From IMG/VR virus record IMGVR_UViG_3300035698_007621, positions 1 to 33,842 of that record: a stretch of DNA of 33,842 bases; one strand, 5' to 3'. The stretch is from a virus. The stretch's first letter is position 1. Each line of letters opens with the position of its first letter. This document shows, piece after piece, positions 3,396 through 31,319 of the stretch. The notes below the pieces were generated by a model. The model ran no database searches, was not told the origin of the DNA, and saw only the letters and a program-made list of their open reading frames with translations. The position numbers and the translations under genes are program-made.

Positions 3396-6300
3396 ATGTC
3401 AATACCATTAAGATATGATGATTTAGGAACAATAAATGCAGTTAAATTAATACCAAAAATAGATAAATACAATGGATATATTCAACTTTATACAGAATTA
3501 GATTCTCATATAGAAGAAGGGGATACAGTATTTATTACATTTAGTGGAGATACTGCAAATTATCCAGATTCAAGTATAGATTTAGATAATTATATTTATA
3601 TGATAAAATCTGAAGATTTTATCTATTCTGATTATGTAACAGGTTATAAAGTTATTTATGTAAATAAAAATAATAATTCATTTGTTATTGATAGAAGTAT
3701 ATTAACAATACAAACTGATGAAATTTATAATCATTATGTTAGTAAAGTTGTTGTAAAAGATATGACAATAGAAAAAGGTCAAATAGATTCTACATTATTT
3801 AAAAATGTAAATTTAAATAATGATGGTGTAACTGATGATGTAACTTGGATTCAAGGGGTTGTATTAAATGGTGATATTAATAATGTTGATTTAACAAATA
3901 AATATGAATCTAATTATATTACTCAAAAATTAGAATATGTTGATACAACATATAATTATACTAAATATATTAATTTAAATAATAATTCATTTGGATATTC
4001 ATTCTATTATAATTTAACATCATCAATCACAAATAGTGTAATATATGCTGGGGTTTTTTATAATTGTAATTTATCATCTACAACTCAAAAAATAATCAAT
4101 GGGGGATATTTTGAACAATGTACAATTGATAATTATATAATTAATGATGGTTATTTTAAAAATACGATATCATTAGCAGATAATATTATATGGAATAACG
4201 GAACATGGGATGGAAATATATTTACAATTTTATCTTGGGGTAATGGGTTATTTTTAAATGGTCAATTTGGTTTTGATGGAACTTCATCTCATACTTGGGG
4301 TAATGGATATTTTGTTGATGGTACTTATAAAGGATCTTTATGGAATGATGGAAATTTTCAAGGTGGAAATTATATTGGGTCATATTGGACTACAGGTGGT
4401 CAAGAATTTTCATCAATTTGGGAAAATGGTATTGTGAATGGTGGTGTTTTATCTGGGAAAACTTCTGGAAATACTAATGAATTAATTTTTAGAAATGTTA
4501 ATATAAATGATGGTTCACTATATAATTTAATAATTAATAATTCTATAATAAATGGAGGAGAAATTAATACATCAATTATTAAAAATTCTGTAATTACAGG
4601 TGGTCAAGTTTCGGGAAGTACAGTTTTTAATTCATCAATATCAAATGGTTCATTATTAAATAGTGATTTATCATATAATAATTTTGAAAATTTAAATTCA
4701 ATAATTGATGAATCTGTATTTTTATTTAAAAATACAATAAATTATGCAACAATTTCTAATAGTTATTTTGTAAATCCCACAACAGTAAATAATGGAAATT
4801 TTACTAGTAATATATTTTCATTAGATGTGAAATCTGGCTTAAAAGGAACAGTTAGAAGTAAATATTTAACAAGTGCAAGTACAATTGAAGAAATTATTTA
4901 TATTGAATTTGAAAATGGTCATTATTTTACATCTGCTGATTCAGGAAAAACAATATATTTATGTGGATTCGAAGTATTAAATTTAAATACAGGATTTACA
5001 ATTTCACCATATACAAAATATAAAATTCCTGGAACAACAACTGTATTTAATTCTGTTGGAGATAATTATATTTTAGTCGAGGAAACAATGGAAGATTATT
5101 ATCAAGGAATAAGTGGATTTATTTCAATATATGATTTAGAAAATATACCATCTGCAACAACAACAATTAATAATGGGTTGTTTAATTCTGATGAATTTAT
5201 AGGAAATGCTAATATTTATAATGGTGTTTTTAATTCCACAACAATGAGAAGTGGAATAACATTTTATAATGGTGAATTTAAAGGAGGTAATTTTAGTTCT
5301 ACAATAGAAGATTCTGAAAATATTTGGATTAATGGGAATTTTCATAATGGGAATTTTGGTAGAACATTAACTAATGATTATCCAACTATCCACGTTTCAA
5401 TGTTTTCTGATCATACAGAATTAATTACTAATACAACAGCCACAACAAATATTGTTATAGAAGAAATTTATCCATTGATAATATATACTCAGAATAAAGT
5501 TTCTGAAGATATTTCAAATAATTATATGACTACTTTCTTAAATTCATTAGCTTGGGAAGATGAACAAATTTTACCAACAACATCTCCACAAGGAGGAACT
5601 TATTCAATAAATCCAGCTAAAATAGTTTTTAAAGTTAATTGTGGAATAGATAAATTATTAATGTTGAGTTGGTTAAAAGAATCAAGTAAAAGTTTAGATA
5701 TAATTGATCCAAATTATACAATAGTTAATCCGGATACTGGATCAACTGATATTTATCAATCATTTAATGATTTATATGGTAGTAATGATTATATATATGA
5801 TGGTTATACTTATGATTCAGGAGATTATGTTTATCTTATTTTTAAATCAGATATTATTAATGATATTTATATTAATGCATCTCAAAATGAAAAATATGCA
5901 TATGATAAAAATTTTAAAAATGCCTGGTCTATCGCAAATTCTGGTTATTATACACATCCATTACCTGTTTTAAGTGCCGTAACTACTATTAATAGTGGTG
6001 GTACTGATAATGTTTCAGGAGTAACGACTTATGAAATGAATTATGATGATGCGGGAGTTCCTCAAACTTCTGGAACAAATTGGATTTATGGTTCACCAAT
6101 TCCACCATGGTGGTGTGATATTAATACTGGCACATCAACCCATTATGTGAATTGGGAAGGTTTAATAACTGGTGCAACAGGATTAAGTTTTGATACACCT
6201 GAATCTTTTGCTGATGATTCTGTTGAAGAATATAATATTGCAATTTCTGGTGCATCAACAACAGGACTTGAATATTTAATTGAAGATTCAAATAATTTCT

Positions 6301-7583
6301 TAAGTAAAGAACAAGAATTTTTTAATTCAACTTTACAAACACCCTTTGGTAATAATTTTTATGAATGGATGAAATATCATATTGGATTTAAAAATTCTCG
6401 TGGTCATATAACATCTGGATTAACAAGTAAATATGAAACAACATCTAACATAACAAGTAATATTTTACATTGGGATTATACTGGAATTACTAATGAAACT
6501 TGGATTCCTGTTCATAATATTGGTGGATATAATTCATATAATGGATATACCCCTATAAGTAGTGATGATGGTGGTATAATTTGGACTGGATTAACAAATA
6601 CTGCAAATACTTATCAAATACTTGTGAATTTTACTGGAGATATAAGTATTGCATTTCATTCTGAACAACCAAGTGGAGTGACATCATATATGAAATCTAT
6701 ATCTAAAACATCAACTAATATTAATAATAATGTTGAATTTTTATTTGATAATATACCTGCAAATGCGCATTGGATTTCTATTGCTAATAATGCATATTCT
6801 GTTGTGAAATCTGTTGAAATGTATAGAAAATATAATTTGTCTGAAATTGATGGTAATTATATTATACCAAATACTGGATTAAGTTGGTATGGTGTTCCAA
6901 TGGTGGATCAAAATATAAATTATAATGATGATCAAATGATTACATCTGCATCTTCAATATATAATTATAATTCACAGGAAACAATAATATTTGAATCATA
7001 TTGGAAATTTAAAAAGAATTTGATTAAAAATAATAAAATTGAATATTATTTATTAAATTCAACAGAATCAGTATTTTCTAATTATTATAATGAAGATTAT
7101 TATGATGATGGTTCAACTGGGAATGTTGCTGATGTTGTATTTACTACTGATGAAAAAGTTGAATTTCAAACTTGGAATTCAAATATTCAAACAAGTATGA
7201 TTAATTTTAATAGAGTTTGTGGAATTCAAATGAAAACTGTAAATGTTCCTTCACCAATAATTGATTCATATAAAGATGATTTTTATAATGGCAATTTTTA
7301 TAACGGGGTGTTTTATGGTAAATGGCATGATGGTAAATGGGGTAATGGAGAATTTAAAGGTTGGAATTCTGCGACAACAATTACGACTTCAGGATCAAGT
7401 CAACATCTTCAATCACCAATAGCAATAAATATTACTAATGCTTTAAATGTAACACAATTTTATGAAAATTATAATCATTTAAAAAAGAAAGATTTATATT
7501 ATGATATTGCTCCTTGGGATGATGCAAATAAAAAGAAATCTGAAATTATTTCAATAAAATTACCTAATAAATATAGAAGTTAA
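3396..7583 (+). CDS. large repetitive virion protein, probable tail fibre or adhesin-type structural protein
   Basis: 1395 aa, the longest gene here. After an N-terminal region of about 150 residues it is dominated by short beta-strand repeats rich in Asn, Gly and aromatic residues. From about residue 265 the pattern is W-x-N-G-x-(F/W), for example WGNGLFLNGQF, WGNGYFVDGTY and LWNDGNFQGG. Near 1296-1325 MORN-like units appear (FYNGVFYGKWHDGKWGNGEF). Such regular strand-turn repeats suggest a beta-helix or beta-solenoid, common in phage fibres and host-binding proteins. The central and C-terminal parts are Thr/Ser/Asn-rich. No enzymatic motif or signal peptide is visible. It lies apart from the baseplate block but could form part of the same tail. 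The exact role is inferred. Confidence 0.6.
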   Translation: MSIPLRYDDLGTINAVKLIPKIDKYNGYIQLYTELDSHIEEGDTVFITFSGDTANYPDSSIDLDNYIYMIKSEDFIYSDYVTGYKVIYVNKNNNSFVIDRSILTIQTDEIYNHYVSKVVVKDMTIEKGQIDSTLFKNVNLNNDGVTDDVTWIQGVVLNGDINNVDLTNKYESNYITQKLEYVDTTYNYTKYINLNNNSFGYSFYYNLTSSITNSVIYAGVFYNCNLSSTTQKIINGGYFEQCTIDNYIINDGYFKNTISLADNIIWNNGTWDGNIFTILSWGNGLFLNGQFGFDGTSSHTWGNGYFVDGTYKGSLWNDGNFQGGNYIGSYWTTGGQEFSSIWENGIVNGGVLSGKTSGNTNELIFRNVNINDGSLYNLIINNSIINGGEINTSIIKNSVITGGQVSGSTVFNSSISNGSLLNSDLSYNNFENLNSIIDESVFLFKNTINYATISNSYFVNPTTVNNGNFTSNIFSLDVKSGLKGTVRSKYLTSASTIEEIIYIEFENGHYFTSADSGKTIYLCGFEVLNLNTGFTISPYTKYKIPGTTTVFNSVGDNYILVEETMEDYYQGISGFISIYDLENIPSATTTINNGLFNSDEFIGNANIYNGVFNSTTMRSGITFYNGEFKGGNFSSTIEDSENIWINGNFHNGNFGRTLTNDYPTIHVSMFSDHTELITNTTATTNIVIEEIYPLIIYTQNKVSEDISNNYMTTFLNSLAWEDEQILPTTSPQGGTYSINPAKIVFKVNCGIDKLLMLSWLKESSKSLDIIDPNYTIVNPDTGSTDIYQSFNDLYGSNDYIYDGYTYDSGDYVYLIFKSDIINDIYINASQNEKYAYDKNFKNAWSIANSGYYTHPLPVLSAVTTINSGGTDNVSGVTTYEMNYDDAGVPQTSGTNWIYGSPIPPWWCDINTGTSTHYVNWEGLITGATGLSFDTPESFADDSVEEYNIAISGASTTGLEYLIEDSNNFLSKEQEFFNSTLQTPFGNNFYEWMKYHIGFKNSRGHITSGLTSKYETTSNITSNILHWDYTGITNETWIPVHNIGGYNSYNGYTPISSDDGGIIWTGLTNTANTYQILVNFTGDISIAFHSEQPSGVTSYMKSISKTSTNINNNVEFLFDNIPANAHWISIANNAYSVVKSVEMYRKYNLSEIDGNYIIPNTGLSWYGVPMVDQNINYNDDQMITSASSIYNYNSQETIIFESYWKFKKNLIKNNKIEYYLLNSTESVFSNYYNEDYYDDGSTGNVADVVFTTDEKVEFQTWNSNIQTSMINFNRVCGIQMKTVNVPSPIIDSYKDDFYNGNFYNGVFYGKWHDGKWGNGEFKGWNSATTITTSGSSQHLQSPIAINITNALNVTQFYENYNHLKKKDLYYDIAPWDDANKKKSEIISIKLPNKYRS

Positions 7584-9289: not shown

Positions 9290-9835
9290 ATGTTAAAAAA
9301 ATATAGTAATTTTAATTCTAATGAATGTAAAGATAAAAAAGATAGTATTAAAATCCCATCTATTGAGAAACCTGTTATCAAAAATCCCAAAGTTTCTATA
9401 TCAAAAGATGCAAAAATGATGAAACCTATTTCTAAAAAACCTAAAGAACCTAAAGCAGAAGTTGAAGAACCAAAATTAGAAGAAAATTTAGAATATATTT
9501 TTGATGGTAAAGTTGTGAATTTTAAAAAATTAATTAAACCATCTGATACTTTAAAATTATTAGAATCAAAAAATATTTCAAAAGAAAAACTACATTATAT
9601 AATTACAGAACAAAATAATTCATTGGTTGTACTTAAATATAATATTGATACAGATATTAAATTAAACATTTTTTCAAAAACATTATTAGATTATTATAAT
9701 AAAAATGAAAAATTAAAAAATATAATGAAAAATATTGAAATTATTGGTACAGAAACATATGCTATAATAAAAAATATTCCTAATTTAGAAATTAGAGATA
9801 TGATTAGTGAAAATATTAAAAAATTATTAAAATAA
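9290..9835 (+). CDS. hypothetical protein, 181 aa, with Lys/Pro-rich N-terminal linker
   Basis: Residues 1-65 are disordered and rich in Lys, Pro and Ser (SKKPKEPKAEVEEPKLEE). Residues 66-181 look like a folded domain beginning YIFDGKVVNFKKLIKPSDTL and rich in Ile, Leu and Asn. No catalytic motif, signal peptide or membrane helix is seen. It starts 22 bases after the preceding terminator, so it probably has its own promoter. Its 3' end overlaps the convergent 134-aa gene by nine bases. Not recognised. Confidence 0.55.
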   Translation: MLKKYSNFNSNECKDKKDSIKIPSIEKPVIKNPKVSISKDAKMMKPISKKPKEPKAEVEEPKLEENLEYIFDGKVVNFKKLIKPSDTLKLLESKNISKEKLHYIITEQNNSLVVLKYNIDTDIKLNIFSKTLLDYYNKNEKLKNIMKNIEIIGTETYAIIKNIPNLEIRDMISENIKKLLK

Positions 9836-10231
9836 TTCTTTCTCCATTATTTTTAAACATTGAGTAACTCCAAATTTAGACCCATTTATCACATATCCAT
9901 ATAAACTAAATATACTTTCTTCTTTTGGTACTTTCCCAAACCAACCATTATTATTACATATTTGATTAATATCATTTTGATATTTAAGATAAAAATCAAA
10001 AATCTCACCATCTTCAACAAAACCAATTAATGGATTATCATTTAAATTTCCAGCAGATTTATTAATAAAATTTTGAACATCAACTAATTCTTCAGTATTT
10101 TCAATGGATTCTTCTAATAGTAATAAAATCCCTCTTTTTAATGTTATATAATCATCTTTTAATTTATCTTTTAATTTGTCATCTAAACTTTCATAAAGAT
10201 AATCTTTATATTTTTCTGTGTATTTTTCCAT
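9827..10231 (-). CDS. hypothetical protein, 134 aa, with tag-like N-terminus
   Basis: The N-terminus MEKYTEKYKDYLYESLDD resembles the short amphipathic tags of T4 capsid-internal proteins and contains L-Y-E, which fits the (L/I)-x-E cleavage pattern of prohead protease gp21. The rest is a small domain with GNLNDNPLIGFVEDGEIF and a C-terminal GYVINGSKFGVTQC. No enzymatic motif is recognised. A TTAATATATAAA motif lies just upstream at 10236-10247. It sits next to two other genes with similar N-termini, suggesting a shared fate in the virion. Confidence 0.5.
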   Translation of the reverse strand: MEKYTEKYKDYLYESLDDKLKDKLKDDYITLKRGILLLLEESIENTEELVDVQNFINKSAGNLNDNPLIGFVEDGEIFDFYLKYQNDINQICNNNGWFGKVPKEESIFSLYGYVINGSKFGVTQCLKIMEKELF

Positions 10232-10235
10232 ATAA

Positions 10236-10247
10236 TTTATATATTAA
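10236..10247 (-). promoter_or_regulatory. TTAATATATAAA motif before the 134-aa gene
   Basis: Exact copy of the 12-base motif on the minus strand, four bases before the ATG at 10231 and overlapping the end of the upstream gene. The very short gap would give an almost leaderless transcript if this were a -10-type element, so a promoter role is uncertain. Confidence 0.25.
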
Positions 10248-10888
10248 ATTTTCTTTACAATTTCTTCAAATTCATCAATATTATTTATATTTATTAAAAG
10301 AACCGGGGAATCTGTCCAAACTTCTAAATTTTTAGAAATATTATTTAATTTTTTATTATTACATATTTTAAATCCTAATTTTTCAGGAGTATAATCTTTT
10401 AAAAGTTCTTGTTCATATTCTTCTATATGATTCAAATAATCTTCTACATCAAATCTATTAAAATTTTGTATCTCATAAAATTTTGTATCTTGAATATCAT
10501 TTGATGGCACTACTCCCCATTTTGTATTATCATATGGTATAACTCGATAAAAAGAATTACTAAATGCTCTAATAGTATTTAAACTGCAAATTAATTCTCT
10601 TTTTGGATAATTTTTCCAAGGTTCTGTATGATTTATAATAAATGTGTATGTATTTTCTCCATTCATATAAGCAGAATTTCTAAATTTTTTTCCTTTATAT
10701 AAATATGTTGATTTAGTTAAAGATTTATTCCATTTTAACCATTTTTTATTAATATTAACAGAACGAAATATTTTAGTATCATCAAATAAAAATTCTTTAC
10801 AATTATCTTTAAATAATTGAATAATTTCATATATATTTTCATTATTCTCAAATAATTTATATGTTTTTAAATAATTTAACATTATCAA
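10244..10888 (-). CDS. tagged protein, 214 aa, possibly ADP-ribosyltransferase-like
   Basis: The N-terminus (LNYLKTYKLFENN) has a KTYKLFE tag with an L-F-E cleavage-like site, as in T4 Alt and internal proteins. The body has KIFRSVN (a possible Arg of an R-S-E type site) at about residues 39-45, then RELICSLNTIRAFSNSFYRV and IPYDNTKWGVVPSNDI. This last block resembles a family seen in T4-like phages (pattern S-L/T-x-x-R-A...YRVIP...GVxPSxD) that may have an ADP-ribosyltransferase fold; this is from memory and low confidence. If right, it would be an injected enzyme modifying host proteins. It lies between two other genes with tag-like N-termini. Confidence 0.4.
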   Translation of the reverse strand: MIMLNYLKTYKLFENNENIYEIIQLFKDNCKEFLFDDTKIFRSVNINKKWLKWNKSLTKSTYLYKGKKFRNSAYMNGENTYTFIINHTEPWKNYPKRELICSLNTIRAFSNSFYRVIPYDNTKWGVVPSNDIQDTKFYEIQNFNRFDVEDYLNHIEEYEQELLKDYTPEKLGFKICNNKKLNNISKNLEVWTDSPVLLININNIDEFEEIVKKI

Positions 10889-10897
10889 TTTTTATTT

Positions 10898-11449
10898 TTA
10901 TCCCCATTGTGAAGACCCTCCTGCATTTGTTGTAGGTTTACGATTTGGAGCATATTTAGTTAAATCATCACTTGTTTGATAAGTCATCATTTTAGCATCT
11001 TTTTCATCATCAGAATATTTTTTAATTTTCTCTTTTCTTTTCTTTTGCATAACTTTTGCATTATTGCCTCTTTTATTTTTCACAGATTTAACTACACTTT
11101 TAGTTGTATCTGGAACTGATGTTCCACTTGGACCATCTCCACCATCAAAAGTTGGTTGATTAGGATTATTATTAATTCTCATATTAGGTCCTTGATGACT
11201 ATCAATACCAAATGTGCCTTTTTTATTATAATCTATATCACTATATTTTTCAAATGTTAAAACATGATTTAATTTTTCAATAACTTTACCAGTTAATGAT
11301 GTTGTTAATTTTTTCTTAGGAATTTTATGATAATGTTTGACAGATGCCCCTTTAGAATTTAAGAATGTTTTTTTAGATACTTTTTTTTCTTTTTTATCTC
11401 CATCATAAAGATAATATTGGATTTCTCCATATGTTTTTATATTTTTCAT
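10898..11449 (-). CDS. basic, partly disordered protein, 183 aa, possible virion protein
   Basis: The N-terminus MKNIKTYGEIQYYLYDGD is tag-like. The remainder is rich in Lys, Gly, Ser and Asn with a disordered middle (GGDGPSGTSVPDTTK), a strongly basic segment at about 123-145 (KNKRGNNAKVMQKKRKEKIK), and a Gly/Ser tail ending SSQWG. A second tag-like stretch, VLTFEKYSD, occurs near residue 63. It follows the gp5-like gene on the same strand after 37 bases. The basic character would suit a DNA-associated capsid protein, but no family is recognised. Confidence 0.45.
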   Translation of the reverse strand: MKNIKTYGEIQYYLYDGDKKEKKVSKKTFLNSKGASVKHYHKIPKKKLTTSLTGKVIEKLNHVLTFEKYSDIDYNKKGTFGIDSHQGPNMRINNNPNQPTFDGGDGPSGTSVPDTTKSVVKSVKNKRGNNAKVMQKKRKEKIKKYSDDEKDAKMMTYQTSDDLTKYAPNRKPTTNAGGSSQWG

Positions 11450-20288: not shown

Positions 20289-21221
20289 ATGGCAAAAAAA
20301 AGTCCCGATTTATCTTTTAAAGATATAAAAACAATGATGGAAAATATTTCCAAAAAAACAGCAATTTTAATAGATGATAATTTAAAAGAAAAACAATATA
20401 TTGATACAGGGGTTTATATGTTAAATGCACTATTAACAAAATCCATATTAAATGGAGGTGTGCCAGATAATAGATTTACAGTATTTGCTGGGCCTGAATC
20501 AGTTGGTAAATCATATATTTGTTATAATATTGCAAGAAATGCTCAAAAAATTGGATATAATGTTATTTATATTGATACTGAACAATCAATAGAATTATCA
20601 GATTTAGTAGATTTTGGAATTGATATTGATAATAAATTTATGTTAATTCGTTCAAATAAAGTTGAAGATATTAAAATTATGTTAACTCAATTATTAGATG
20701 AATTAAAAGAAAAAAAATTAGCAGGTGTTGATATTGGAAAAACTATTATATTTTTAGATTCTATTGGACAATTAGCTTCAAGAAAAGAAGTTGAAGATGC
20801 AAAAGAAGGAAAAAATAAAGTTGATATGTCAAGAGCAAAAGCAATTAAATCTTTATTTAGAATTATTAGTTCCGATTTAGGATTTTTAAATATTCCTCTT
20901 GTTGCAACAAATCATGTTTATATGTGTTTCACAAAAGAAACCCAAGTTTTAATGTCTGATGATACATATAAATATATTAATTTGATTAATATTGGAGAAT
21001 ATGTTAAAACATTAGATGGTGATAAACCTGTTGAAGATATTGTTGAATTTAATAATTCAACAATAATGGAAATAATTTTAGATGATGGAGAAATCATGAA
21101 ATGCACAAAAAATCATAAATTTTTGATTAATGAAGATTGGAATGAAGATGAAAATTCTTCTTGTTGGATTGCAGCAGAAGATTTGAAAGAAAATCAAATT
21201 ATTTTAGCTATAAGTGAATAG
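20289..21221 (+). CDS. uvsX: UvsX/RecA recombinase N-terminal half fused to a split N-intein
   Basis: 310 aa. Residues 1-212 are the N-terminal part of a T4 UvsX-like recombinase: Walker A GPESVGKS (68-75), Walker B TIIFLDSIG (152-160, Asp157), and PLVATNHVYM ending at the edge of the DNA-binding loop L2. At Cys213 the sequence changes abruptly to an intein N-terminal part: block A CFTKETQVLM and block B KCTKNHKFLI with T-x-x-H (Thr273, His276). The frame stops at 21221 after a 98-residue N-intein. All three frames between here and the next gene contain stops, so this is a true split and not one frameshift. The C-terminal half lies in the next gene. Splicing would give a 403-residue UvsX, close to T4 UvsX (391). 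Confidence 0.9.
   Translation: MAKKSPDLSFKDIKTMMENISKKTAILIDDNLKEKQYIDTGVYMLNALLTKSILNGGVPDNRFTVFAGPESVGKSYICYNIARNAQKIGYNVIYIDTEQSIELSDLVDFGIDIDNKFMLIRSNKVEDIKIMLTQLLDELKEKKLAGVDIGKTIIFLDSIGQLASRKEVEDAKEGKNKVDMSRAKAIKSLFRIISSDLGFLNIPLVATNHVYMCFTKETQVLMSDDTYKYINLINIGEYVKTLDGDKPVEDIVEFNNSTIMEIILDDGEIMKCTKNHKFLINEDWNEDENSSCWIAAEDLKENQIILAISE
20925..21218 (+). other. split N-intein of uvsX
   Basis: 98 codons from Cys213 (TGT at 20925-20927) to the last residue before the stop. The Cys nucleophile follows extein Met212. Block B contains Thr and His in TKNH. The expected C-terminal partner is at 22531-22653. Confidence 0.88.
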
Positions 21222-21285
21222 ACTTGGTTAGTAGTAATAAATGGTATTTTTAAATTAATATATAATTAAAAAAGAAATATCATTT

Positions 21286-23229
21286 ATGCAACTAACAAAA
21301 GAAAATTTAATTGAAAGAATAAAAAAATCAAAAAGTACAGGACAAATTATGAAATCAATCAAAAAAAATAATGATTTTTTAGAAATAATTATATCAAAAA
21401 CAAAGTTTTTAAATAATGTTACTATTTCTGAAAGAATTTTTAATATTAAAAATAATTATAACGAAATTCAAAAATGTGATTGTGGGACAAAATTAACTTG
21501 GAACAAAAAAAGATTTTATAATAAAAGTTGTGGAGATTTAAACTGTTTATCAAAAATAAAAGGACAGTTATCAAAAAAACAAACTATAGAAAAAACAAAA
21601 AAAATAAAACAAACTAAATTAGAAAAATATGGTGATGAAAAATATAATAACATAAAAAAACAACAAAAAACTAATTTAGAAAAATATGGAGAAATATCAT
21701 ATACAAAAACTAATGAATATAAAAAAATGATGATTGAAAAATATGGATATGTATCTCCTTTTGAATTAAAAGAAACTCACAAAAAATCAAAAGAAACATT
21801 AAAAAAAAGATATGGTGTTGAACATAATTTTAAAATAAATGGAATGAAAGAAAAAATTATTAAAACATGGATTAATAATTTTGGAGAAAATAATCCTATG
21901 AAACATCAATTAAATATTGATAAAGCAATTGAAACAAATATAAAAAAATATGGTTATAAATCTCCTATGATGAATGAAAAAATAAAAAAGAAATCTCAAA
22001 ATACATTAATGAAAAATTTTAATGTTACTTCACCATTAAAATCAAAGATTATTTATCAAAAATTTGTGGAAACTTGTTTAAAAAAGTACGGTGAAACACA
22101 TTATATGAAAAATTCAAAATTTTTTGATAATTTTTTTAAAAAAGCAAATAAATCATCTTATAAAGAATATAAATTAAATGAAAAAATTTTTTATTTACAA
22201 GGATATGAAGATTATGTATTAGAAAAATTAGTAAATAAATATAATATTGATGATATTTATATTTCAAATGAAGAAATAACACAACAAATAGGCAAAATTG
22301 AATATAATGGAATAGATGAAAAATCACATAAATATTATCCTGATTTTTATATAAAATCAGAAAATTTGATTATTGAAGTTAAATCAGATTATACATATAT
22401 CACAGATTTAGAAAAAAATTTATTAAAACAAAAAGCTTGTTTAGAATCTGGTATAAATTTTCAATTTATGATTATTGATAAAAAGACATATAATAATTGG
22501 AAATCAAAAAAAAAAAATAAAAATAAAAATATGAAATTTATTAATAAAAGAGTAATATCTGTTAAAGAATTAACAGAAAAAGACACAACTTATGATATGA
22601 AAGTAAAAGATTCTCATCATTATATATTAAAAAATGGGATAGTTAGTCATAATACTCAAGATTTATTTCCAAAAACTGTTCAATCAGGAGGTAAAGGAGT
22701 AGATTATTCAGCATCAACAATTGTATATTTAACTAAAGCAAAACTTAAAACTGGAACAGAAGATGATTTAGATTTAGGAGCTTCTGGTATTATTGTAACT
22801 GCATTAGCAAGAAAAAACAGAAATGCAAAACCAAAAAAGATTAAATTTGAAATTAATCATAGTTTAGGTACTAATAAATTTAAAGGATTAGAATATTTCT
22901 GTACTCCTGAAAATTTTGAAAATATTGGTATTGCAAAAGTAAAAAAAGTTATTGATAAAAAAACTAAAGAAATAACTTATACACAAGGGGGTACTAAATG
23001 GTTTGTAAAACATTTAGATAAATCTTTTTATGAAAAACAACTTTACACTAGCAAAATTTTTACACAAGAAATTTTAGAAAAATTAGAACCAATTATTTAT
23101 AGATATTTTAGTTATATTTCATATGATGAAATGGTTAAAATTAATGAAGAAATGGATCATAAATATCAAGATTTTGAAGAAGATGATTTTGATATTGATT
23201 CAGATGATGAAAGTTCATTATTTGATTAA
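21286..23229 (+). CDS. uvsX: homing-type endonuclease fused to split C-intein and UvsX C-terminal half
   Basis: 647 aa in three parts. Residues 1-415 are an endonuclease. A Cys-rich element comes first (KCDCGTKL...KSCGDLNCLSK, 63-90). Eight repeats centred on KYG follow (Gly at 116, 135, 154, 177, 200, 223, 269; a variant at 246), then a PD-(D/E)xK-like nuclease core (YPDFY, Asp353; IIEVKS, Glu364 and Lys366). Residues 416-456 are a C-intein beginning with Met: block F TYDMKVKDSHHYIL and block G NGIVSHN, with cyclising Asn456. Thr457 is the +1 residue, and residues 457-647 are the UvsX C-terminus (TQDLFPKTVQSGG, then an acidic tail). The fusion passes through 12 consecutive A. The C-intein Met could also serve as a separate start. 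Confidence 0.88.
   Translation: MQLTKENLIERIKKSKSTGQIMKSIKKNNDFLEIIISKTKFLNNVTISERIFNIKNNYNEIQKCDCGTKLTWNKKRFYNKSCGDLNCLSKIKGQLSKKQTIEKTKKIKQTKLEKYGDEKYNNIKKQQKTNLEKYGEISYTKTNEYKKMMIEKYGYVSPFELKETHKKSKETLKKRYGVEHNFKINGMKEKIIKTWINNFGENNPMKHQLNIDKAIETNIKKYGYKSPMMNEKIKKKSQNTLMKNFNVTSPLKSKIIYQKFVETCLKKYGETHYMKNSKFFDNFFKKANKSSYKEYKLNEKIFYLQGYEDYVLEKLVNKYNIDDIYISNEEITQQIGKIEYNGIDEKSHKYYPDFYIKSENLIIEVKSDYTYITDLEKNLLKQKACLESGINFQFMIIDKKTYNNWKSKKKNKNKNMKFINKRVISVKELTEKDTTYDMKVKDSHHYILKNGIVSHNTQDLFPKTVQSGGKGVDYSASTIVYLTKAKLKTGTEDDLDLGASGIIVTALARKNRNAKPKKIKFEINHSLGTNKFKGLEYFCTPENFENIGIAKVKKVIDKKTKEITYTQGGTKWFVKHLDKSFYEKQLYTSKIFTQEILEKLEPIIYRYFSYISYDEMVKINEEMDHKYQDFEEDDFDIDSDDESSLFD
22506..22517 (+). repeat. 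run of 12 A joining endonuclease and C-intein frames
   Basis: The homopolymer lies 13 bases before the internal ATG at 22531. With 11 A the endonuclease frame would end at TGA overlapping that ATG (ATGA), giving two genes; with 13 A it would stop at once at TAA. The fused reading depends on exactly 12, or on another number of the same phase. Confidence 0.9.
22531..22653 (+). other. split C-intein of uvsX
   Basis: 41 codons from ATG 22531 (MKFINKRVISVKEL) to Asn456 (AAT at 22651-22653), followed by Thr at 22654-22656. It has block F with DSHHYIL and block G ending GIVSHN. Its length and Met start are typical of natural split C-inteins. Confidence 0.88.
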
Positions 23230-24633: not shown

Positions 24634-25314
24634 ATGTCAAAGAATATAGATGAAAATTTTAATGATGAAGATTTTAATGATGAAAATTTTAATGATGAAG
24701 ATTTTAATGATGAAGATTTTAATGAAGAAGATATTGATAATAAAATTAAGATTGATGAAGAAATTAATAATGAAGAAATTAATAATGAAGAAATCCCAGA
24801 TACAAAATTTGAAATTTTATTTAAAAATAATGCTAATAAACATAAATTAGAAGGTACTCATTCATTAAAAAGAGATACTATATTTATGGGAAAAGAAGAA
24901 GAGGAAGAAGATAAAAATCCAATATTTGATATTATAGCGAGTTTTGATCAAAAATATGAAATAGAAAAAGGTTCAACATATGAAGCAGAAAATAGAAATA
25001 ATGAAAATTATTTACATAAAAAACAATTATGTGAAGATATATACAAAATTTTAGAATCTGAAACTAATATAAATTTTATTATGAATAGAAGAAAACCAAA
25101 TAGACAAACATTTAACAATTATTATAAAATGTGTATTGATGATTTAAATATAAAATACACTAAATCAGAAATATTTGTTGAATTATCATATTATTTTACA
25201 GATAATATTTTTAATATGTTTAAGTTACTTGACAAAACTCATGCAACAGGAATAATATTAGAATTAAAAGAAAAAGGATATTTAACAGATATTGGAAATA
25301 TTAACTTTATTTAA
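24634..25314 (+). CDS. acidic hypothetical protein, 226 aa
   Basis: Residues 1-56 are extremely acidic low-complexity sequence: five FNDED-type pentapeptides and then repeats of INNEE. The remainder contains THSLKRDTIFMGKEEEEEDK, a probable helical region and a C-terminal domain ending TGIILELKEKGYLTDIGNIN. No catalytic motif is recognised. Its location between the helicase and ribonucleotide reductase genes suggests a replication-associated role, and the acidic N-terminus could mimic DNA or bind a basic partner, but both are guesses. Confidence 0.55.
   Translation: MSKNIDENFNDEDFNDENFNDEDFNDEDFNEEDIDNKIKIDEEINNEEINNEEIPDTKFEILFKNNANKHKLEGTHSLKRDTIFMGKEEEEEDKNPIFDIIASFDQKYEIEKGSTYEAENRNNENYLHKKQLCEDIYKILESETNINFIMNRRKPNRQTFNNYYKMCIDDLNIKYTKSEIFVELSYYFTDNIFNMFKLLDKTHATGIILELKEKGYLTDIGNINFI
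24658..24732 (+). repeat. tandem 15-base repeats
   Basis: Five units of about TTTAATGATGAAGAT encode the FNDED pentapeptide repeats. A second array of 15-base units (AATAATGAAGAAATT) follows near 24763-24795 and encodes INNEE. Both are prone to copy-number change in frame. Confidence 0.8.
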
Positions 25315-25342: not shown

Positions 25343-26233
25343 ATGAATAAAAATAATGTAATATTAAAAACTATTAAAAAGAAATATACAAGAAGTGAAG
25401 TTTTTGATGCAACATTAAAATATTTTAATGGAGATGAATTAGCAACTAACGTTTGGATAAATAAATATTGTTTGAAAGATTCAGATAATAATTTATTTGA
25501 ACTTACCCCAGATGATATGCATAAAAGATTAGCAAAAGAAATATCAAGAATAGAACAAAAATACCCAAATCCAAAATCAGAAAAAGAAATTTTTGATTTA
25601 ATAAAAAATTTCAAATATATTGTTCCTCAAGGAGGACCTATGTCGGGAATTGGTAATGAAAAACAAATAGTTAGTCTTTCCAATTGTTTTGTAATTGGAA
25701 AAGGAGATAATGATTCTTATGGTGCAATAATGAAAATAGATGAAGAACAAGTCCAATTAATGAAAAGAAGAGGTGGAGTAGGTCATGATTTAAGTCATAT
25801 AAGACCAAATAAATCTGACGTTAAAAATTCAGCTTTAACATCAACAGGAATTATTCCATTTATGAAAAGATATTCAAATTCTACAAGAGAAGTTGGACAA
25901 GATGGAAGACGTGGAGCATTAATGCTTAGTTGCTTCTCTCCTGATACTTATGTTTTAGTTGATAGTGGATGGGAAAAAATATCTAATGTTATAAATAATT
26001 TAAAAACAGGGGAAAATATTAAAGCATGGACACATGAAGGATTTAAAGATATAATAGATTATCAAGAATTTGAAGATAGAGATATTTATGAAATAGAAGC
26101 TGAAAATGGAAAAATAATTAAAGTGACAGGAGATCATAAATTTATGGTTAAAAATTTAACCACAAATGAGGAATATTTAAAAGCAGTTATTAATATTGAT
26201 GTTGAAAATGAAGAACTTATTTTTTATATGTAA
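25343..26233 (+). CDS. nrdJ: class II ribonucleotide reductase N-terminal part fused to a split N-intein
   Basis: 296 aa. Residues 1-196 are the start of an adenosylcobalamin-dependent ribonucleotide reductase (NrdJ), with VSLSNCFVIG (Cys115, one of the redox-active cysteines), MKRRGGVGHDLSHIRP and GQDGRRGALMLS. At Cys197 the intein begins: block A CFSPDTYVLV and block B KVTGDHKFMV (Thr262, His265). It ends at 26233 after 100 intein residues. The C-terminal part follows two genes later, with a free-standing endonuclease between. All frames between this gene and the next carry stops. This is the fractured-gene arrangement described for phage-like NrdJ and other loci in marine metagenomes. No ATP-cone is present at the N-terminus. 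Confidence 0.9.
   Translation: MNKNNVILKTIKKKYTRSEVFDATLKYFNGDELATNVWINKYCLKDSDNNLFELTPDDMHKRLAKEISRIEQKYPNPKSEKEIFDLIKNFKYIVPQGGPMSGIGNEKQIVSLSNCFVIGKGDNDSYGAIMKIDEEQVQLMKRRGGVGHDLSHIRPNKSDVKNSALTSTGIIPFMKRYSNSTREVGQDGRRGALMLSCFSPDTYVLVDSGWEKISNVINNLKTGENIKAWTHEGFKDIIDYQEFEDRDIYEIEAENGKIIKVTGDHKFMVKNLTTNEEYLKAVINIDVENEELIFYM
25931..26230 (+). other. split N-intein of nrdJ
   Basis: 100 codons starting at TGC 25931-25933 (Cys197), immediately after the conserved RRGALMLS extein sequence. T-x-x-H of block B is TGDH. The partner C-intein is at 27282-27398. Confidence 0.88.
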
Positions 26234-26251
26234 TTTTTTATACTTTTTGAC

Positions 26252-26273
26252 TGTTATATATTTATATATAACA
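26252..26273 (+). promoter_or_regulatory. hairpin just upstream of the nrdJ endonuclease gene
   Basis: Perfect 9-bp inverted repeat TGTTATATA / TATATAACA around a TTTA loop, ending 16 bases before the ATG at 26290. Free-standing homing endonuclease genes in T4 often have upstream RNA hairpins that limit their translation; this could play the same part. Confidence 0.5.
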
Positions 26274-26289
26274 ATAAAGAACTAAAAAA

Positions 26290-27285
26290 ATGAAAGATGT
26301 AAAATTTAAAAAAATAAAAGAATCACTTTATATAGATACGTATATTATTAATCAAAAAAGTATAATTATAAATGATATCAAAATTGATTTAGAAACAAAG
26401 AATGCATATTCAACTTTAAGTCATTATCTTAAAATTAGTGGTACAACATTAAATGATTATTTAATTAATGAAATAAATGGAGATATATGTATTCATTGTG
26501 GAGAAAAAATAAATAAAAGTAATTTTTCCAGAAAGAAATTTAAAAATTATAAATTTTGTAATAAATGTAATTCTGAAAAAATAAGAAATTTATATAGAAA
26601 TAAAAATTGTATTATTTGTAATAAAATTTGTCTTGATAAAGATATTATTTTTTCAACATGTGGATCAAGTAAATGTTTAAATAAACATAGAAAAAATATA
26701 AATGATAAAATATCATCTACACATTGGACAAAAAAAGAAAATTATCAAGAAATTGAGAAAAAAAGAATAAAAAAGAGAAAAGAAAATGATATATTATTTA
26801 ATAGAATATATATTCCTTGGAATAAAGGGAAAACAGGAATATACTCAAAAGAAACAATAGAAAAAATTAGAAACGCTACTATTAAACAAATGAAAAAAGG
26901 TAGAATTAAAAAAACAAAACAAGAAAAAATATTTGAAGAATTTCTTATTAATAATAAAATAAATTACACATATTCTTATATTTATAAACGAAGACAATTT
27001 GATTTTTTACTTCATGATTATAAGTTAATAGTTGAATTACAAGGTGATTATTGGCATGCTAATCCAGATTATTGGGATATTTATGGTAATGATCCAACAA
27101 AAAAGAAATTGTATGAAACTCAAATTATGAAGAAAAAAGATGATATAATAAAAAAACAATTAATAAAAGATTCTAAATTTGATTTTGTTGAATTTTGGGA
27201 ATATGATATACATAATAATTTTTCATATGTAATAGAAACTTTAATCACAAGTTTTAATATAAAAATAAATAAATTTAATAAATGA
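26290..27285 (+). CDS. free-standing homing endonuclease, Vsr-like with zinc-finger and NUMOD3-like elements
   Basis: 331 aa. Two Cys-rich elements come first (CIHCGEK...CNKCNS at about 66-93 and CIICNKIC...CGSSKC at about 106-131), then a NUMOD3-like DNA-binding stretch (WNKGKTGIYSKETIEKIRNA). The nuclease core FDFLLHDYKLIVELQGDYWH followed by ANPDYW matches the very-short-patch-repair-like (EDxHD-type) fold of endonucleases found inside fractured genes. It probably cuts uninterrupted nrdJ alleles and spreads the insertion. It lies between the N-intein gene and the C-intein gene and its stop overlaps the next ATG (ATGA at 27282-27285), indicating translational coupling. It carries no intein sequence itself. 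Confidence 0.85.
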   Translation: MKDVKFKKIKESLYIDTYIINQKSIIINDIKIDLETKNAYSTLSHYLKISGTTLNDYLINEINGDICIHCGEKINKSNFSRKKFKNYKFCNKCNSEKIRNLYRNKNCIICNKICLDKDIIFSTCGSSKCLNKHRKNINDKISSTHWTKKENYQEIEKKRIKKRKENDILFNRIYIPWNKGKTGIYSKETIEKIRNATIKQMKKGRIKKTKQEKIFEEFLINNKINYTYSYIYKRRQFDFLLHDYKLIVELQGDYWHANPDYWDIYGNDPTKKKLYETQIMKKKDDIIKKQLIKDSKFDFVEFWEYDIHNNFSYVIETLITSFNIKINKFNK

Positions 27286-27398
27286 AAAAAACATATAGTA
27301 AACTAAAAAAAATAACTAAAAAAGGAAAATCTACAGTTTTAGATTTTACTGTAAAAGATACACATAAAATTTTAGCTAATAATTTTTATACCTCTAAT
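27282..27398 (+). other. split C-intein of nrdJ
   Basis: 39 codons from ATG 27282 to AAT 27396-27398, followed by Cys TGT 27399-27401. The Met start overlaps the stop of the endonuclease gene. It is similar in length and block structure to the uvsX C-intein but differs in sequence and in +1 residue. Confidence 0.88.
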
Positions 27399-29357
27399 TG
27401 TGATGTTAGACATCCTGATTCTCAAGAATTTATGAATGCAAAAATGATAGAAGGGGAATTAACAGGAGCAAATATATCATTAAAATTAACAGATGATTTT
27501 ATGAAAGCTGTTATTGATGATAAATCATTTACTCAAATGTATCCTGTAAATTCAAAAAATCCGAAAATTCATTTTGAAACTAAAGCTAAACCTTTCTTTA
27601 ATCAAATTGTACACAATGCATGGAAATGTGGAGAACCAGGGATATTGTTTTGGGATACTATTATTAGGGAATCTGTTTCAGATGCTTATGAAAATGAGGG
27701 ATTTAGGACTGTCAGTACCAATCCTTGTGGGGAATTACCCTTACCACCAAATGATTCTTGTAGATTACTTTCACTTAATTTATATTCATATGTTGTTAAT
27801 CCATTTACTAAAGATGTATATTTCGATTTTGACTTATTTAAAGAACATATTTATTATGCACAAAGAATAATGGATGATATTGTTGATTTAGAAATTGAGA
27901 AAATTGAAAAAATTCTTGAAAAAATTGATTCAGATCAAGAACCAGATCATATTAAAAATACTGAACGAAATTTATGGGAAAATATGATATTAATGGCAAA
28001 AAAAGGTAGAAGATTAGGAATTGGAATTACTGCTGAAGGAGATATGTTAGCTGCATTAGGTTATACTTATGGTACAGTAGAGGCAACTGAATTTTCAACA
28101 AATCTTCATAAAAATATGGCAATAAATATTTATAAATCTTCTTGTTTATTAGCACAGGATAGAGGGTCATTTGAAGTTTTTGATTATGAAAAAGAAAAAA
28201 ATAATATTTTTCTCAATAGATTAGCTAATGAAGATTCTGAATTAAAAGAATTATTGAAATTAGGCAGAAGAAACATTGCGTTATTAACAATAGCCCCAAC
28301 GGGATCTGTTAGCCTTATGACACAAACCACATCTGGTATTGAACCAGTGTTCCTAGTTGCATATAAACGAAGACGAAAAATTAACCCAAATGATAAAAAT
28401 ATTAAAGTACAATTTATTGATGAGTCTGGAGATTCTTGGGAAGAATATCCTGTATTTCATCATCATTTCAAAACTTGGATGAAAGTAAATAATTATGATT
28501 TAAATATAAATTATTCTAAAGAAGAATTAACTGAATTAGTGAAAAAATCACCATATTGGAAAGCTACTTCAAATGATGTTAATTGGGTTGAAAAAGTAAA
28601 AATGCAAGGGAAAATTCAACAATTTGTGGATCATTCGATAAGTTCTACAGTAAATTTACCAGAAAATATTAAAGAAGAAGTTGTTGGTCAAATTTACAAA
28701 ACTGCTTGGGAAACTGGTTGTAAAGGGGTTACTGTTTATAGAGATGGTTGTAGATCAGGAGTTTTAATATCTGATGATAATAAATCTATCAATGAAATTA
28801 TTAAAGAAAATAATGCACCAAAAAGACCAAAAAAATTAAAATGTAATATTTTAAGATTTCAAAATAATAAAGAAAAATGGATTGGATTTGTTGGATTACT
28901 TGAAGATAGTCCTTATGAAATTTTCACTGGATTATTAGAATCCTTTTTTATTCCAAGTTATGTTGATCAAGGGTGGATTATTAAAAATAAAGATAAAAAA
29001 GGAAAATCAAGATATGATTTTATTTATATTGATCGTGATAGTTATGAACAAGATATGCGAGGATTATCAAGAGCTTTTAATAAAGAATATTGGAATTATG
29101 GTAAATTAATTTCAGGAGTAATTAGACATGGTATGCCAATCCCAAATGTGATAAATTTAATTGATTCTTTAGATATGCCAGATACAATAGTATCTTGGAA
29201 AGGAGGAGTTAAAAGAATGTTGAAGAAATATATTAAAGGTGACGAAAGTCAAGAAATTTGTCCAATATGTGGAAATAAAACTACATTTTCTGAAGGATGT
29301 TTAATTTGTGCTGACACAGAAGAAAAACCTGGATGTGGTTGGTCAAAGTGTGGTTAA
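27282..29357 (+). CDS. nrdJ: split C-intein fused to class II ribonucleotide reductase C-terminal part
   Basis: 691 aa. Residues 1-39 are the C-intein (block F VLDFTVKDTHKILAN, block G ending FYTSN, Asn39). Cys40 is the +1 residue of the extein, which reads CDVRHPDSQEF. The catalytic centre is STNPCGELPL, with thiyl-radical Cys149, Glu151 and redox Cys160 eleven residues later, as in NrdJ. The phosphate/substrate loop APTGSVSLMTQTTSGIEP follows at 338-355. The C-terminal region holds GVTVYRDGCRSG and a zinc-binding-like tail with Cys660, 663, 673, 676, 685 and 690. Spliced NrdJ would be 848 residues. It makes dNTPs using vitamin B12 coenzyme, which the host must supply. A strong terminator follows. 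Confidence 0.92.
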   Translation: MKKTYSKLKKITKKGKSTVLDFTVKDTHKILANNFYTSNCDVRHPDSQEFMNAKMIEGELTGANISLKLTDDFMKAVIDDKSFTQMYPVNSKNPKIHFETKAKPFFNQIVHNAWKCGEPGILFWDTIIRESVSDAYENEGFRTVSTNPCGELPLPPNDSCRLLSLNLYSYVVNPFTKDVYFDFDLFKEHIYYAQRIMDDIVDLEIEKIEKILEKIDSDQEPDHIKNTERNLWENMILMAKKGRRLGIGITAEGDMLAALGYTYGTVEATEFSTNLHKNMAINIYKSSCLLAQDRGSFEVFDYEKEKNNIFLNRLANEDSELKELLKLGRRNIALLTIAPTGSVSLMTQTTSGIEPVFLVAYKRRRKINPNDKNIKVQFIDESGDSWEEYPVFHHHFKTWMKVNNYDLNINYSKEELTELVKKSPYWKATSNDVNWVEKVKMQGKIQQFVDHSISSTVNLPENIKEEVVGQIYKTAWETGCKGVTVYRDGCRSGVLISDDNKSINEIIKENNAPKRPKKLKCNILRFQNNKEKWIGFVGLLEDSPYEIFTGLLESFFIPSYVDQGWIIKNKDKKGKSRYDFIYIDRDSYEQDMRGLSRAFNKEYWNYGKLISGVIRHGMPIPNVINLIDSLDMPDTIVSWKGGVKRMLKKYIKGDESQEICPICGNKTTFSEGCLICADTEEKPGCGWSKCG

Positions 29358-29446: not shown

Positions 29447-30175
29447 ATGAACAAAACAACAACTAAAACATTTTCGATTGATTCAGAACTTTACAAAAAA
29501 TTTGAAAAATTATGTGAATCAAGAAGTATTACCAAATCAAAAATCATACAAAAAGCAATTAAACAATTTCTTGTTGATAACATCCCAATGGAAAATACTT
29601 TTTATGTATTAAAACATGATCTTGAAATCTGTAATTATTTAACAATCACAGATAAAGAAGATGAATTTGTAGTATTAAGTAATGGAAGTAAAATTAATGT
29701 ATTTGATTTTGATAAAATCTATGAAGAAGTAGATTCAGGAGTAATAAAGACTTTAGATATTATCAGAAATAATAAATCAACTTTAACAATAGATAATCTT
29801 GGATTAAAAGATTCTTTAGAAAAAGTAGATAAATATCATGAAAAAAGTAGATTTGATACAAATCATCAAATTATTACGAAATTTAAAGATGAAAATTTAC
29901 AAGAGAGAGAACATAAGACTATATTTGAGAATCACAATTTAAATTTAGAAGATTTACAAGATGATGATGAAGAAATTGAAATTGAAAGTGTAGAAAAATT
30001 TCATAATACTAATTTTAGTGATCCAGAAAAAATAATTGATGCTTTAAATAAGATAGAAAATCCTATTGAAATAAGTAAAATAATTATGGAAAAACATATT
30101 AATGTTGTTGATAATATTGCATTAGAAAAAAATGTAGATAAATTTAAAGATATTCAAAAACAAATGCCTAAATAG
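29447..30175 (+). CDS. ribbon-helix-helix DNA-binding protein, 242 aa
   Basis: Residues 5-45 (TKTFSIDSELYKKFEKLCES, SITKSKIIQKAIKQFL) fit a ribbon-helix-helix (CopG/Arc-like) domain: a short strand with alternating residues followed by two helices. The remaining 200 residues are Lys/Glu/Asp-rich with an acidic stretch (LEDLQDDDEEIEIESVE) and no recognised fold. It is probably a phage transcription regulator acting as a dimer, but RHH domains also occur in plasmid-type and structural proteins. It starts 29 bases after the nrdJ terminator, behind an ATTTATATATAAA element at 29418-29430, so it is likely transcribed separately. Confidence 0.7.
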   Translation: MNKTTTKTFSIDSELYKKFEKLCESRSITKSKIIQKAIKQFLVDNIPMENTFYVLKHDLEICNYLTITDKEDEFVVLSNGSKINVFDFDKIYEEVDSGVIKTLDIIRNNKSTLTIDNLGLKDSLEKVDKYHEKSRFDTNHQIITKFKDENLQEREHKTIFENHNLNLEDLQDDDEEIEIESVEKFHNTNFSDPEKIIDALNKIENPIEISKIIMEKHINVVDNIALEKNVDKFKDIQKQMPK

Positions 30176-30716
30176 ATTTAGATTTAAATATTTTACAATG
30201 TGATTTATTTATTTTTATTTTATCAATAATTTCAAAATAATCATTATTAATAATTGGATATTTGCTTGGAGATATTAAAACAAAATACTCACAATTTGTA
30301 GATAAATTATACATCAAATTATTAAAATAAGATGATTCACATAAATGTAATGCATAAGAACAAATAATAGTTTGTGTTTTAATATTTAATCCATTTGTTG
30401 CAATTTCTTCAAAAGACACATTTATACATTTTTTATCAGTATTTTTGCTATAAACATCACATAAATATAGATCAATTCCAATTCCATCAGTAATAGATTT
30501 AGTATTAAGAAATGTAGTAATTTCTCCATTACCACAACCTAAATCAATAAATTTTGTAATATCTATTTTTTCTATAACCCAATCTAAGCATAAATGAATA
30601 TTATCAAGATGTGGATTTATATAGGAATTTTTATTTTGTTTATAAAAATTTTGAACTCCCAGTTTAGAATATTCATCTCTAATTCCATATTCATTTATAG
30701 ATTTAATATATTTCAT
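30168..30716 (-). CDS. class I SAM-dependent methyltransferase with tag-like N-terminus
   Basis: 182 aa. Motif I (FIDLGCGNGE, residues 56-65) binds S-adenosylmethionine, GIGIDLYLCD is the motif II strand with its acidic residue, and TQTIICSYALHLCES is the motif IV region. The target cannot be read from sequence; no DPPY/NPPY motif of DNA amino-methyltransferases is present, so a small-molecule, protein or RNA substrate is possible. The N-terminus MKYIKSINEYGI resembles the tags on the two upstream genes and holds I-N-E, a possible prohead-protease site. It is the last of three closely spaced minus-strand genes and overlaps the convergent RHH gene by eight bases. Confidence 0.7.
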   Translation of the reverse strand: MKYIKSINEYGIRDEYSKLGVQNFYKQNKNSYINPHLDNIHLCLDWVIEKIDITKFIDLGCGNGEITTFLNTKSITDGIGIDLYLCDVYSKNTDKKCINVSFEEIATNGLNIKTQTIICSYALHLCESSYFNNLMYNLSTNCEYFVLISPSKYPIINNDYFEIIDKIKINKSHCKIFKSKSI

Positions 30717-30719
30717 AAT

Positions 30720-31046
30720 TTAAGATATTTTGTCCATATAATTTTTATATGAATTTAAATAAAATTTTTCATTTTCAATATCAAAAATGAATGTTTTCTT
30801 ATTTACTTCTTTCATATTAATATAATATGCTATTGATTTTCCATCTTTTTCTATTAATTCAACATCACCAACACTTTCAATAATGAATGATATTTTTTCT
30901 AATATATTTTCAACATCAGATTTTTTTTCATAGGAATTTATAATTTCAATAATATCTTCACTATTATCATTAAAATACTTAACAATTAATTCATTTAATG
31001 TGTTATTATTATATTTTTCAAATAATTTTATATATTTCATTTTCAT
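30720..31046 (-). CDS. tagged hypothetical protein, 108 aa
   Basis: The first 14 residues, MKMKYIKLFEKYNN, are identical to those of the next gene upstream, encoded by a 40-base perfect repeat. L-F-E fits the (L/I)-x-E cleavage pattern of T4 prohead protease. After the tag the protein is small and helical with a beta-rich end (VELIEKDGKSIAYYINMKEV). No family is recognised. It is one base downstream of the preceding gene and three bases before the methyltransferase gene, forming a compact operon of tagged proteins. Confidence 0.55.
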   Translation of the reverse strand: MKMKYIKLFEKYNNNTLNELIVKYFNDNSEDIIEIINSYEKKSDVENILEKISFIIESVGDVELIEKDGKSIAYYINMKEVNKKTFIFDIENEKFYLNSYKNYMDKIS

Positions 31047-31049
31047 ATT
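31010..31049 (-). repeat. 40-base repeat encoding the MKMKYIKLFEKYN tag, copy 1
   Basis: Identical over 40 bases to 31221-31260; it covers the start region and first 13 codons of the 108-aa gene. The sequences just upstream (TTCTTTTT on the plus strand) are also similar. Confidence 0.9.
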
Positions 31050-31257
31050 ATGGTTTCTTTTTATTTGCTATTATATATTCTTCTTTACTCAAAGTTAATA
31101 CTTTATATCCAAATCCTTGTTCTCGTTTCCATTCATAACATAATGCTTCTGTTCCATAATATAACGCAATATTTGTGTTTTTTATTACATCTACTACTTT
31201 ATGGGTTTTCATATCATTGTTATATTTTTCAAATAATTTTATATATTTCATTTTCAT
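31048..31257 (-). CDS. tagged small hypothetical protein, 69 aa
   Basis: It starts with the same MKMKYIKLFEKYNN leader as the next gene, followed by an unrelated domain (MKTHKVVDVIKNTNIALYYG, then YEWKREQGFGYKVL). An internal Met directly after the leader could start a leaderless form. No family is recognised. It is the first gene of the minus-strand group, divergent from dnaJ. Confidence 0.5.
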   Translation of the reverse strand: MKMKYIKLFEKYNNDMKTHKVVDVIKNTNIALYYGTEALCYEWKREQGFGYKVLTLSKEEYIIANKKKP

Positions 31258-31260
31258 ATT
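31221..31260 (-). repeat. 40-base repeat encoding the tag, copy 2
   Basis: Perfect copy of 31010-31049, 211 bases away in direct orientation. Recombination between the copies would delete the 69-aa gene cleanly while keeping the tag on the next one. Confidence 0.9.
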
Positions 31261-31319
31261 GTGACTTCTTTTTAAATATATATTAAAAACAAAACATTAA
31301 AAAAGAAGTATAAATAAAT

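Follow-up and report, generated by a model that had tools for sequence, protein, structure and literature searches.

Probable fusion and local copying of a leader-coding repeat at two adjacent gene starts in a Mahaphage-like huge phage, and its likeness to T4 capsid targeting sequences

Why should two neighboring phage genes, with products that are otherwise unrelated, begin with the same run of some forty bases? The question is raised by a virus record of 33.8 kb and 22% GC, analyzed here over its whole length of 33,842 nt and called 'the window'. Its replication and tail genes match those of the huge phages LR756501/LR756503 (735 kb), LR756504, LR745206, and LR756502, which makes the window a piece of the genome of a Mahaphage-like huge phage. 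The Mahaphage clade is that in which Al-Shayeb et al. placed their largest genomes, with predicted Bacteroidetes hosts (PMC7162821).

I use here the term 'leader' for the N-terminal peptide in question, 'tagged' for a gene carrying a leader, and 'body' for what follows the leader. The features of the locus are these:

31220..31260, minus strand: repeat copy 1, spanning the 69-aa gene's start codon plus the codons of its leader
31048..31257, minus strand: 69-aa gene, leader MKMKYIKLFEKYNND plus body MKTHKVVDV..., the body being untagged in other phages
31210..31212, minus strand: Met16 codon, an ATG inside the 69-aa gene that lines up with the starts of untagged homologues
31009..31049, minus strand: repeat copy 2, spanning the 108-aa gene's start codon plus the codons of its leader
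30720..31046, minus strand: 108-aa gene, leader MKMKYIKLFEKYNN, body unrelated to that of the 69-aa gene
30168..30716, minus strand: 182-aa SAM-dependent methyltransferase, leader variant MKYIKSINEY, absent in aligned homologues of other phages

A repeat at two adjacent gene starts

The longest exact direct repeat in the window is 41 nt (31009-31049 = 31220-31260, offset 211), with a repeat search extending it to 59 nt at 93% (31005-31063 / 31216-31274). By comparison, the longest direct repeat averaged 18 nt over 60 order-2 Markov simulations and never exceeded 23. The repeat reads AAT + ATG AAA ATG AAA TAT ATA AAA TTA TTT GAA AAA TAT AA, and a nearby ribosome-site-like stretch, AAAAAGAA, is also common to both gene starts. 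Beyond the leader the products part company, that is, BLASTP of the 69-aa versus the 108-aa protein confines the match to residues 1-22, with MKMKYIKLFEKYNN in common and nothing beyond. An earlier note on this DNA, which had described a perfect 40-base repeat at two gene starts and the divergence of those genes past it, was correct on both counts, save for the exact length.

Given the codon bias of this genome, 14 identical residues would be encoded by 14 identical codons with P = 0.13. What is notable is thus the common leader sequence and the adjacency of its copies, rather than agreement at silent sites. A 17/20 upstream identity of the pair was likewise set aside as strong evidence, as 11 of 13,953 pairs reach 17/20, in a count which is anchored on the second Met and takes in coding bases. 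The term 'DNA cassette', as used in the earlier note, survives only in part: across the genome it is the leader codons that are shared, with no excess of identity upstream, and codon bias weakens the DNA-level argument. Loss of the 69-aa gene by deletion via the repeat, which that note also envisaged, was not observed, with the sole other assembly (IMGVR 3300025669_003144) retaining the 3' end of this gene and stopping there. The DnaJ loci of relatives, at 30-35%, are too distant for a comparison of gene content at the repeat site.

Junctions between leader and body

The body of the 69-aa protein has homologues in IMG/VR contigs 3300022848_000777 and 3300023240_001391 (52 aa, 63% identity) and in contig 3300042991_000632 (58 aa, 43% identity). 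In both of these sequence lineages the homologues are untagged, their start Met aligns exactly with Met16 of the 69-aa protein, and an in-frame stop codon, which precedes that start by 4 or 6 codons, leaves no space for a leader. It is this combination, of start at Met16 and closely preceding stop, that argues for fusion of the leader onto an existing reading frame. Met16, by homology, is the fusion point, and possibly it is a second start as well. A search for the leader pattern in two of the phages with untagged homologues returned background only (one match with one control match in the one, zero in the other).

The 69-aa gene ends with AAA AAG AAA CCA TAA, which is similar to the stretch upstream of the first leader copy (AAAAAGAA), whereas the untagged homologues have other endings. 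This likeness suggests that the body may have been placed with a leader copy on either side. Neither the 69-aa nor the 108-aa body, stripped of its leader, found a match in the phage collection; a weak, 11-residue match of a stripped body in bacterial genomes is a chance one, to another frame of an unrelated gene. The 108-aa body yields no convincing family, with the best, DUF5461 (E=0.008), below the cut-off. A 78-aa antisense ORF (31050-31286, plus strand) had been the first ORF caller's choice instead of the 69-aa gene, and is rejected because the latter has homologues in other phages.

The methyltransferase gene, which directly follows the 108-aa gene, supplies a second leader-fusion junction, as shown by homology. 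Here the alignment sets MKYIKSINEY/GIRDEYSKLGV of the window against M/GVRDEYSKYGV of phage LC76P1 (the slash marking the junction), i.e., MGVRDEYSKYGV stands in LC76P1 where the window has MKYIKSINEYGIRDEYSKLGV, such that the original Met would have been replaced. The methyltransferases of GAP32, XacN1, and LR756501 also are without the leader; that of XaC1, with an annotated start that differs, was left out of the comparison.

Fusion of the leader to the 69-aa body is, on these alignments, strongly supported and very probable, and parsimony would make its direction one of leader gain rather than loss. The earlier suggestion of leaders fused to new reading frames is, that is, well supported from two sides, by 69-aa homologues which start at Met16 and by methyltransferase homologues which start just after the leader. 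If targeting is what the leader does, then these would be clear cases of gain of a targeting signal by fusion, one of them still showing the start codon that the gene had before. Such a step has been proposed for T4, as one that 'may represent an evolutionary mechanism' (PMC9026906).

The leader in related huge phages and its likeness to capsid targeting

The leader has the consensus M-K-[YH]-[LI]-K-x-[FY], then [hydrophobic]-x-E, with [EN] at position 8 in the iterated profile. It is found on 50 of 932, 101 of 949, and 129 of 974 ORFs of three nearly whole relatives of 635-642 kb, versus 14 of 12,322 internal Met. Position 4 is L/I/V/F in about 99% of leader genes and position 7 is F/Y in about 96%, though the profile partly selects for both; hydrophobic-x-Glu ends at positions 8-12 in 235 of 331 leader genes versus 37 of 331 control stretches, with LFE at this place in the window pair. 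As synonymous leader codons vary across genes, the constraint acts on the leader protein. The bodies, by contrast, are nearly all mutually different: the 332 tagged genes fall into 208 body clusters, of which 168 are singletons, and include lysozyme, transglycosylase, HD, NUDIX, SET, HNH, and PQ-loop domains. In LR756502 (L062:11122-16154) there are about nine consecutive same-strand leader genes (MKHLKRYNES, MKHLKTYKLYES, ...), several of them in one large paralogous body family.

Further N-termini in the window are leader-like or match the core of the T4 type:

10898..11449, minus strand: leader-like N-terminus MKNIKTYGE, profile score 9.2
10244..10882, minus strand: leader-like N-terminus MLNYLKTYKLFENN, from the ATG at 10882
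9827..10231, minus strand: N-terminus MEKYTEKYKDYLYES, matching the T4-type core [FY]xx[FY]x(1-2)E[ASNG]

Leader forms resembling MKYIKEYEEFLLEA are seen in LR756500 and forms resembling MIKKYIQFINEA in LR756501, the latter phage being the closest relative by tail protein and yet possessing a different leader form. As sequences, the forms in these two phages are a bridge to MKTYQEFIAEA of T4. The papers searched, which leave out most of the subscription literature, do not describe a leader of this kind in huge phages.

The T4 proteins IPI, IPIII, and Alt are delivered with the phage DNA. In T4, proteins are brought into the head by the capsid targeting sequence (CTS), which gp21 cuts, with residues 4 and 7 important to targeting and residues 8 and 10 to processing (PMC9026906). 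The CTS has been suggested as a route by which T4-like phages acquire varied proteins (PMC9026906), and anti-defence proteins such as T4 IPI, and probably IPIII, act in the host from the first moment of infection (PMC9026906, PMC9391042). T4 also rearranges and deletes genes via short repeats, with loss of ipIII affecting host range (PMC9391042).

The leader resembles the CTS in being an N-terminal stretch of about 10-20 residues which starts with M-K, has at each of positions 4 and 7 a residue that is hydrophobic or aromatic, has hydrophobic-x-Glu behind these, and is carried by unrelated bodies. The T4 genes ipII and ipIII indeed have the same layout as the window pair, i.e., adjacent genes with unrelated bodies and a 47-nt identical start/CTS repeat. 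In contrast, the leader consensus is longer, its position 4 is mostly aliphatic where that of T4 is aromatic, and leaders are found on 50-129 genes in the three relatives versus a handful in T4, with leader targeting and cutting being predicted from sequence. The difference from T4 lies in the scale of leader use and the clarity of the fusion points.

Short common sequences at gene borders also define the mobile regulatory cassettes of T4-type phages, which may promote shuffling of small non-essential genes. Those cassettes carry promoter and stem-loop elements between genes, whereas the window repeat is protein-coding. Another comparison is with the inner-head propeptides of SPN3US and phiKZ, N-terminal sequences of head proteins that are removed C-terminal to Glu, as is predicted for the leader; they differ in that several exceed 100 residues, they occur on few proteins, and the SPN3US cleavage motif is A-x-E. 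In SPN3US, gp53 and gp54 have identical 15-residue N-termini on diverged proteins (PMC5694885).

Does the leader then direct proteins into the phage head? In these relatives, the first 22 residues show roughly 4-10-fold enrichment for the T4 core pattern [FY]xx[FY]x(1-2)E[ASNG]. Matches to gp21-type (S77) and gp23 genes are present in all huge-phage relatives scanned, only one S77 match being above Pfam's cut-off, and the gp21-type protease frame lies just upstream of the gp23-type capsid gene. The gp23-type capsid propeptides contain a candidate cleavage site, read from the sequence as QINE/NAY or similar. As the window has no head genes, a protease for it can be inferred from relatives only. 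Packaging, by this resemblance to the T4 CTS, is a reasonably probable leader function. Several points count against it or fit it poorly: the residue after the predicted cut in the window pair is K, versus the A/S/N common elsewhere; a PQ-loop membrane domain, a poor fit with head cargo, is present in one or more of the tagged proteins; 50-129 tagged genes per genome is far more than the few of T4; and LR756501 has, as noted, a different leader form.

In L018-L022, L026, and L027 the gp21-type protease domain is part of open frames that, at 635-811 codons, far exceed T4 gp21 in length; the long frames upstream of the capsid gene possibly are protease-scaffold fusions.

A real and transferable leader might instead have a different role, for example in bringing proteins to a membrane or replication compartment, in RNA binding, or in boosting translation initiation. 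That is a somewhat doubtful but not idle suggestion, as very many genes are tagged, some with domains not obviously suited to heads (the PQ-loop protein again), and as leaders contain many Lys and aromatic residues. Nevertheless, positions 4 and 7 are constrained and a hydrophobic-x-Glu motif stands right behind them, which along with the T4 core pattern and the candidate capsid-protein cleavage site points to head assembly, while freely varying synonymous codons argue against a purely nucleotide-level role. The ribosomal protein bS21, which acts in the cytoplasm, is without the leader; the idea that the basic/aromatic N-terminal extensions of huge-phage bS21 (PMC7162821) are the leader was tested and not supported.

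Probable local copying of the leader

Two leaders of the same genome typically agree at only about 4-5 of 12 residues, and just 4 of 14,899 within-genome pairs (332 tagged genes, window plus relatives) share all 12. Among those pairs the window pair has the second-longest exact leader DNA run. The longest, of 45 nt in LR756502, was rejected as a comparable case as it is the palindromic intergenic region of a divergent pair. The two tagged genes of that pair, at L063:5108-5135, have start codons 26 bp apart.

Local copying was assessed in LR756504, LR745206, and LR756502, using same-strand tagged genes no more than 1.5 kb apart and with unrelated bodies. Such pairs share 4.73 of 11 leader residues versus 3.71 +/- 0.16 when permuted (0/500), and runs of at least 18 nt are found in 4.6% of them versus 0.4% (2/500). 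In the three relatives these pairs display no excess of identity upstream or in the body, and short-range spread thus would seem to be general, with the leader itself as its unit. Local copying is well supported, i.e., quite probable, and the short-range duplication posited in the earlier note gains statistical support from three related genomes. Since codon bias gives identical codons 13% of the time, conversion, duplication, and protein-level selection are not fully separable.

Confinement of that genome-wide signal to leader codons is also what would be expected of gene conversion, that is, of two neighbors already tagged with their leaders then homogenized by recombination, such that identity reflects leader-to-leader copying rather than acquisition. 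As the sole explanation this is improbable, for in two other lineages the 69-aa body lacks a leader and begins where the junction lies; the leader consequently was gained at some point, though conversion may have acted later. Distinctly improbable is that there was no recent DNA copying at all, just a leader constrained as protein in a genome with, at 22% GC, few alternative codons. While the above P = 0.13 and the protein-level constraint with varied synonymous codons both are consistent with this, the usual disparity of leaders within a genome and the rarity of 12/12 pairs are not. Nor is it expected that one exact peptide, MKYIKLFEKYN, should occur twice side by side here and otherwise, in any codons, in only one other contig, of the same phage, among 2.9 million viral contigs. 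Plain tandem gene duplication followed by divergence of bodies does happen to tagged genes in this group, since one paralogous body family found in LR756502 and LR745206 accounts, after profile search, for 96 of the 332, but for the window pair it is hardly credible, as there is no similarity beyond residue 22, neither body is among the matches listed for the 96-member family's profile, and the 69-aa body has its own homologues elsewhere, which already contradicts duplication.

The reading preferred here, and considered somewhat probable as a whole, is that the repeat is the coding sequence of a transferable, T4-CTS-like leader which was locally copied and fused in frame, presumably toward packaging. 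A neighboring leader copy would have been duplicated, probably from a local source, and fused in frame onto the front of a small gene then arriving, with Met16, going by homology, as what remains of that gene's own start codon; the adjacent methyltransferase would have been given its leader likewise, with its Met replaced. The leader might then direct the protein into the assembling head, where a gp21-type prohead protease could cut after [hydrophobic]-x-E (LFE/K or INE/Y), leaving a nearly native protein in the head, perhaps to be delivered with the DNA as are IPI, IPIII, and Alt. It is a tentative extension, with the chances slightly against it, that Mahaphage-like huge phages run a large head-cargo programme. 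T4-CTS-like tags on roughly 5-13% of ORFs (three nearly whole relatives) would have spread by local copying and in-frame fusion onto new genes, making packaged, injectable proteins in one step. Were this true, the leader would be a widespread cargo-loading label, on up to about 130 genes per relative, and if it is a packaging tag then sequence alone would indicate which of the many uncharacterized huge-phage genes act in the host from infection's first moment.

Elsewhere in the window, at 20289-23229, intein halves (CFTKETQVLM... and ...HHYILKNGIVSHN) appear, from translations only, to break up a RecA/UvsX-like gene; two ORFs are separated by a stop and a short gap, and the arrangement resembles a split intein carrying an endonuclease-like insert. 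A ribonucleotide-reductase gene (25343-29357) is fractured likewise, its N-terminal part ending in an intein-like start, followed by a separate endonuclease-like ORF (26290-27285) and then a C-terminal part which opens with an intein-like end. A 1395-aa protein (3396-7583) with repeated N-G-x-F-type motifs is possibly tail-fibre or adhesin-like, with no PHROGs match at 0.1. At 24634-24753, tandem 15-nt repeats encode the repeated DEDFN / DENFN units with which a 226-aa protein opens.
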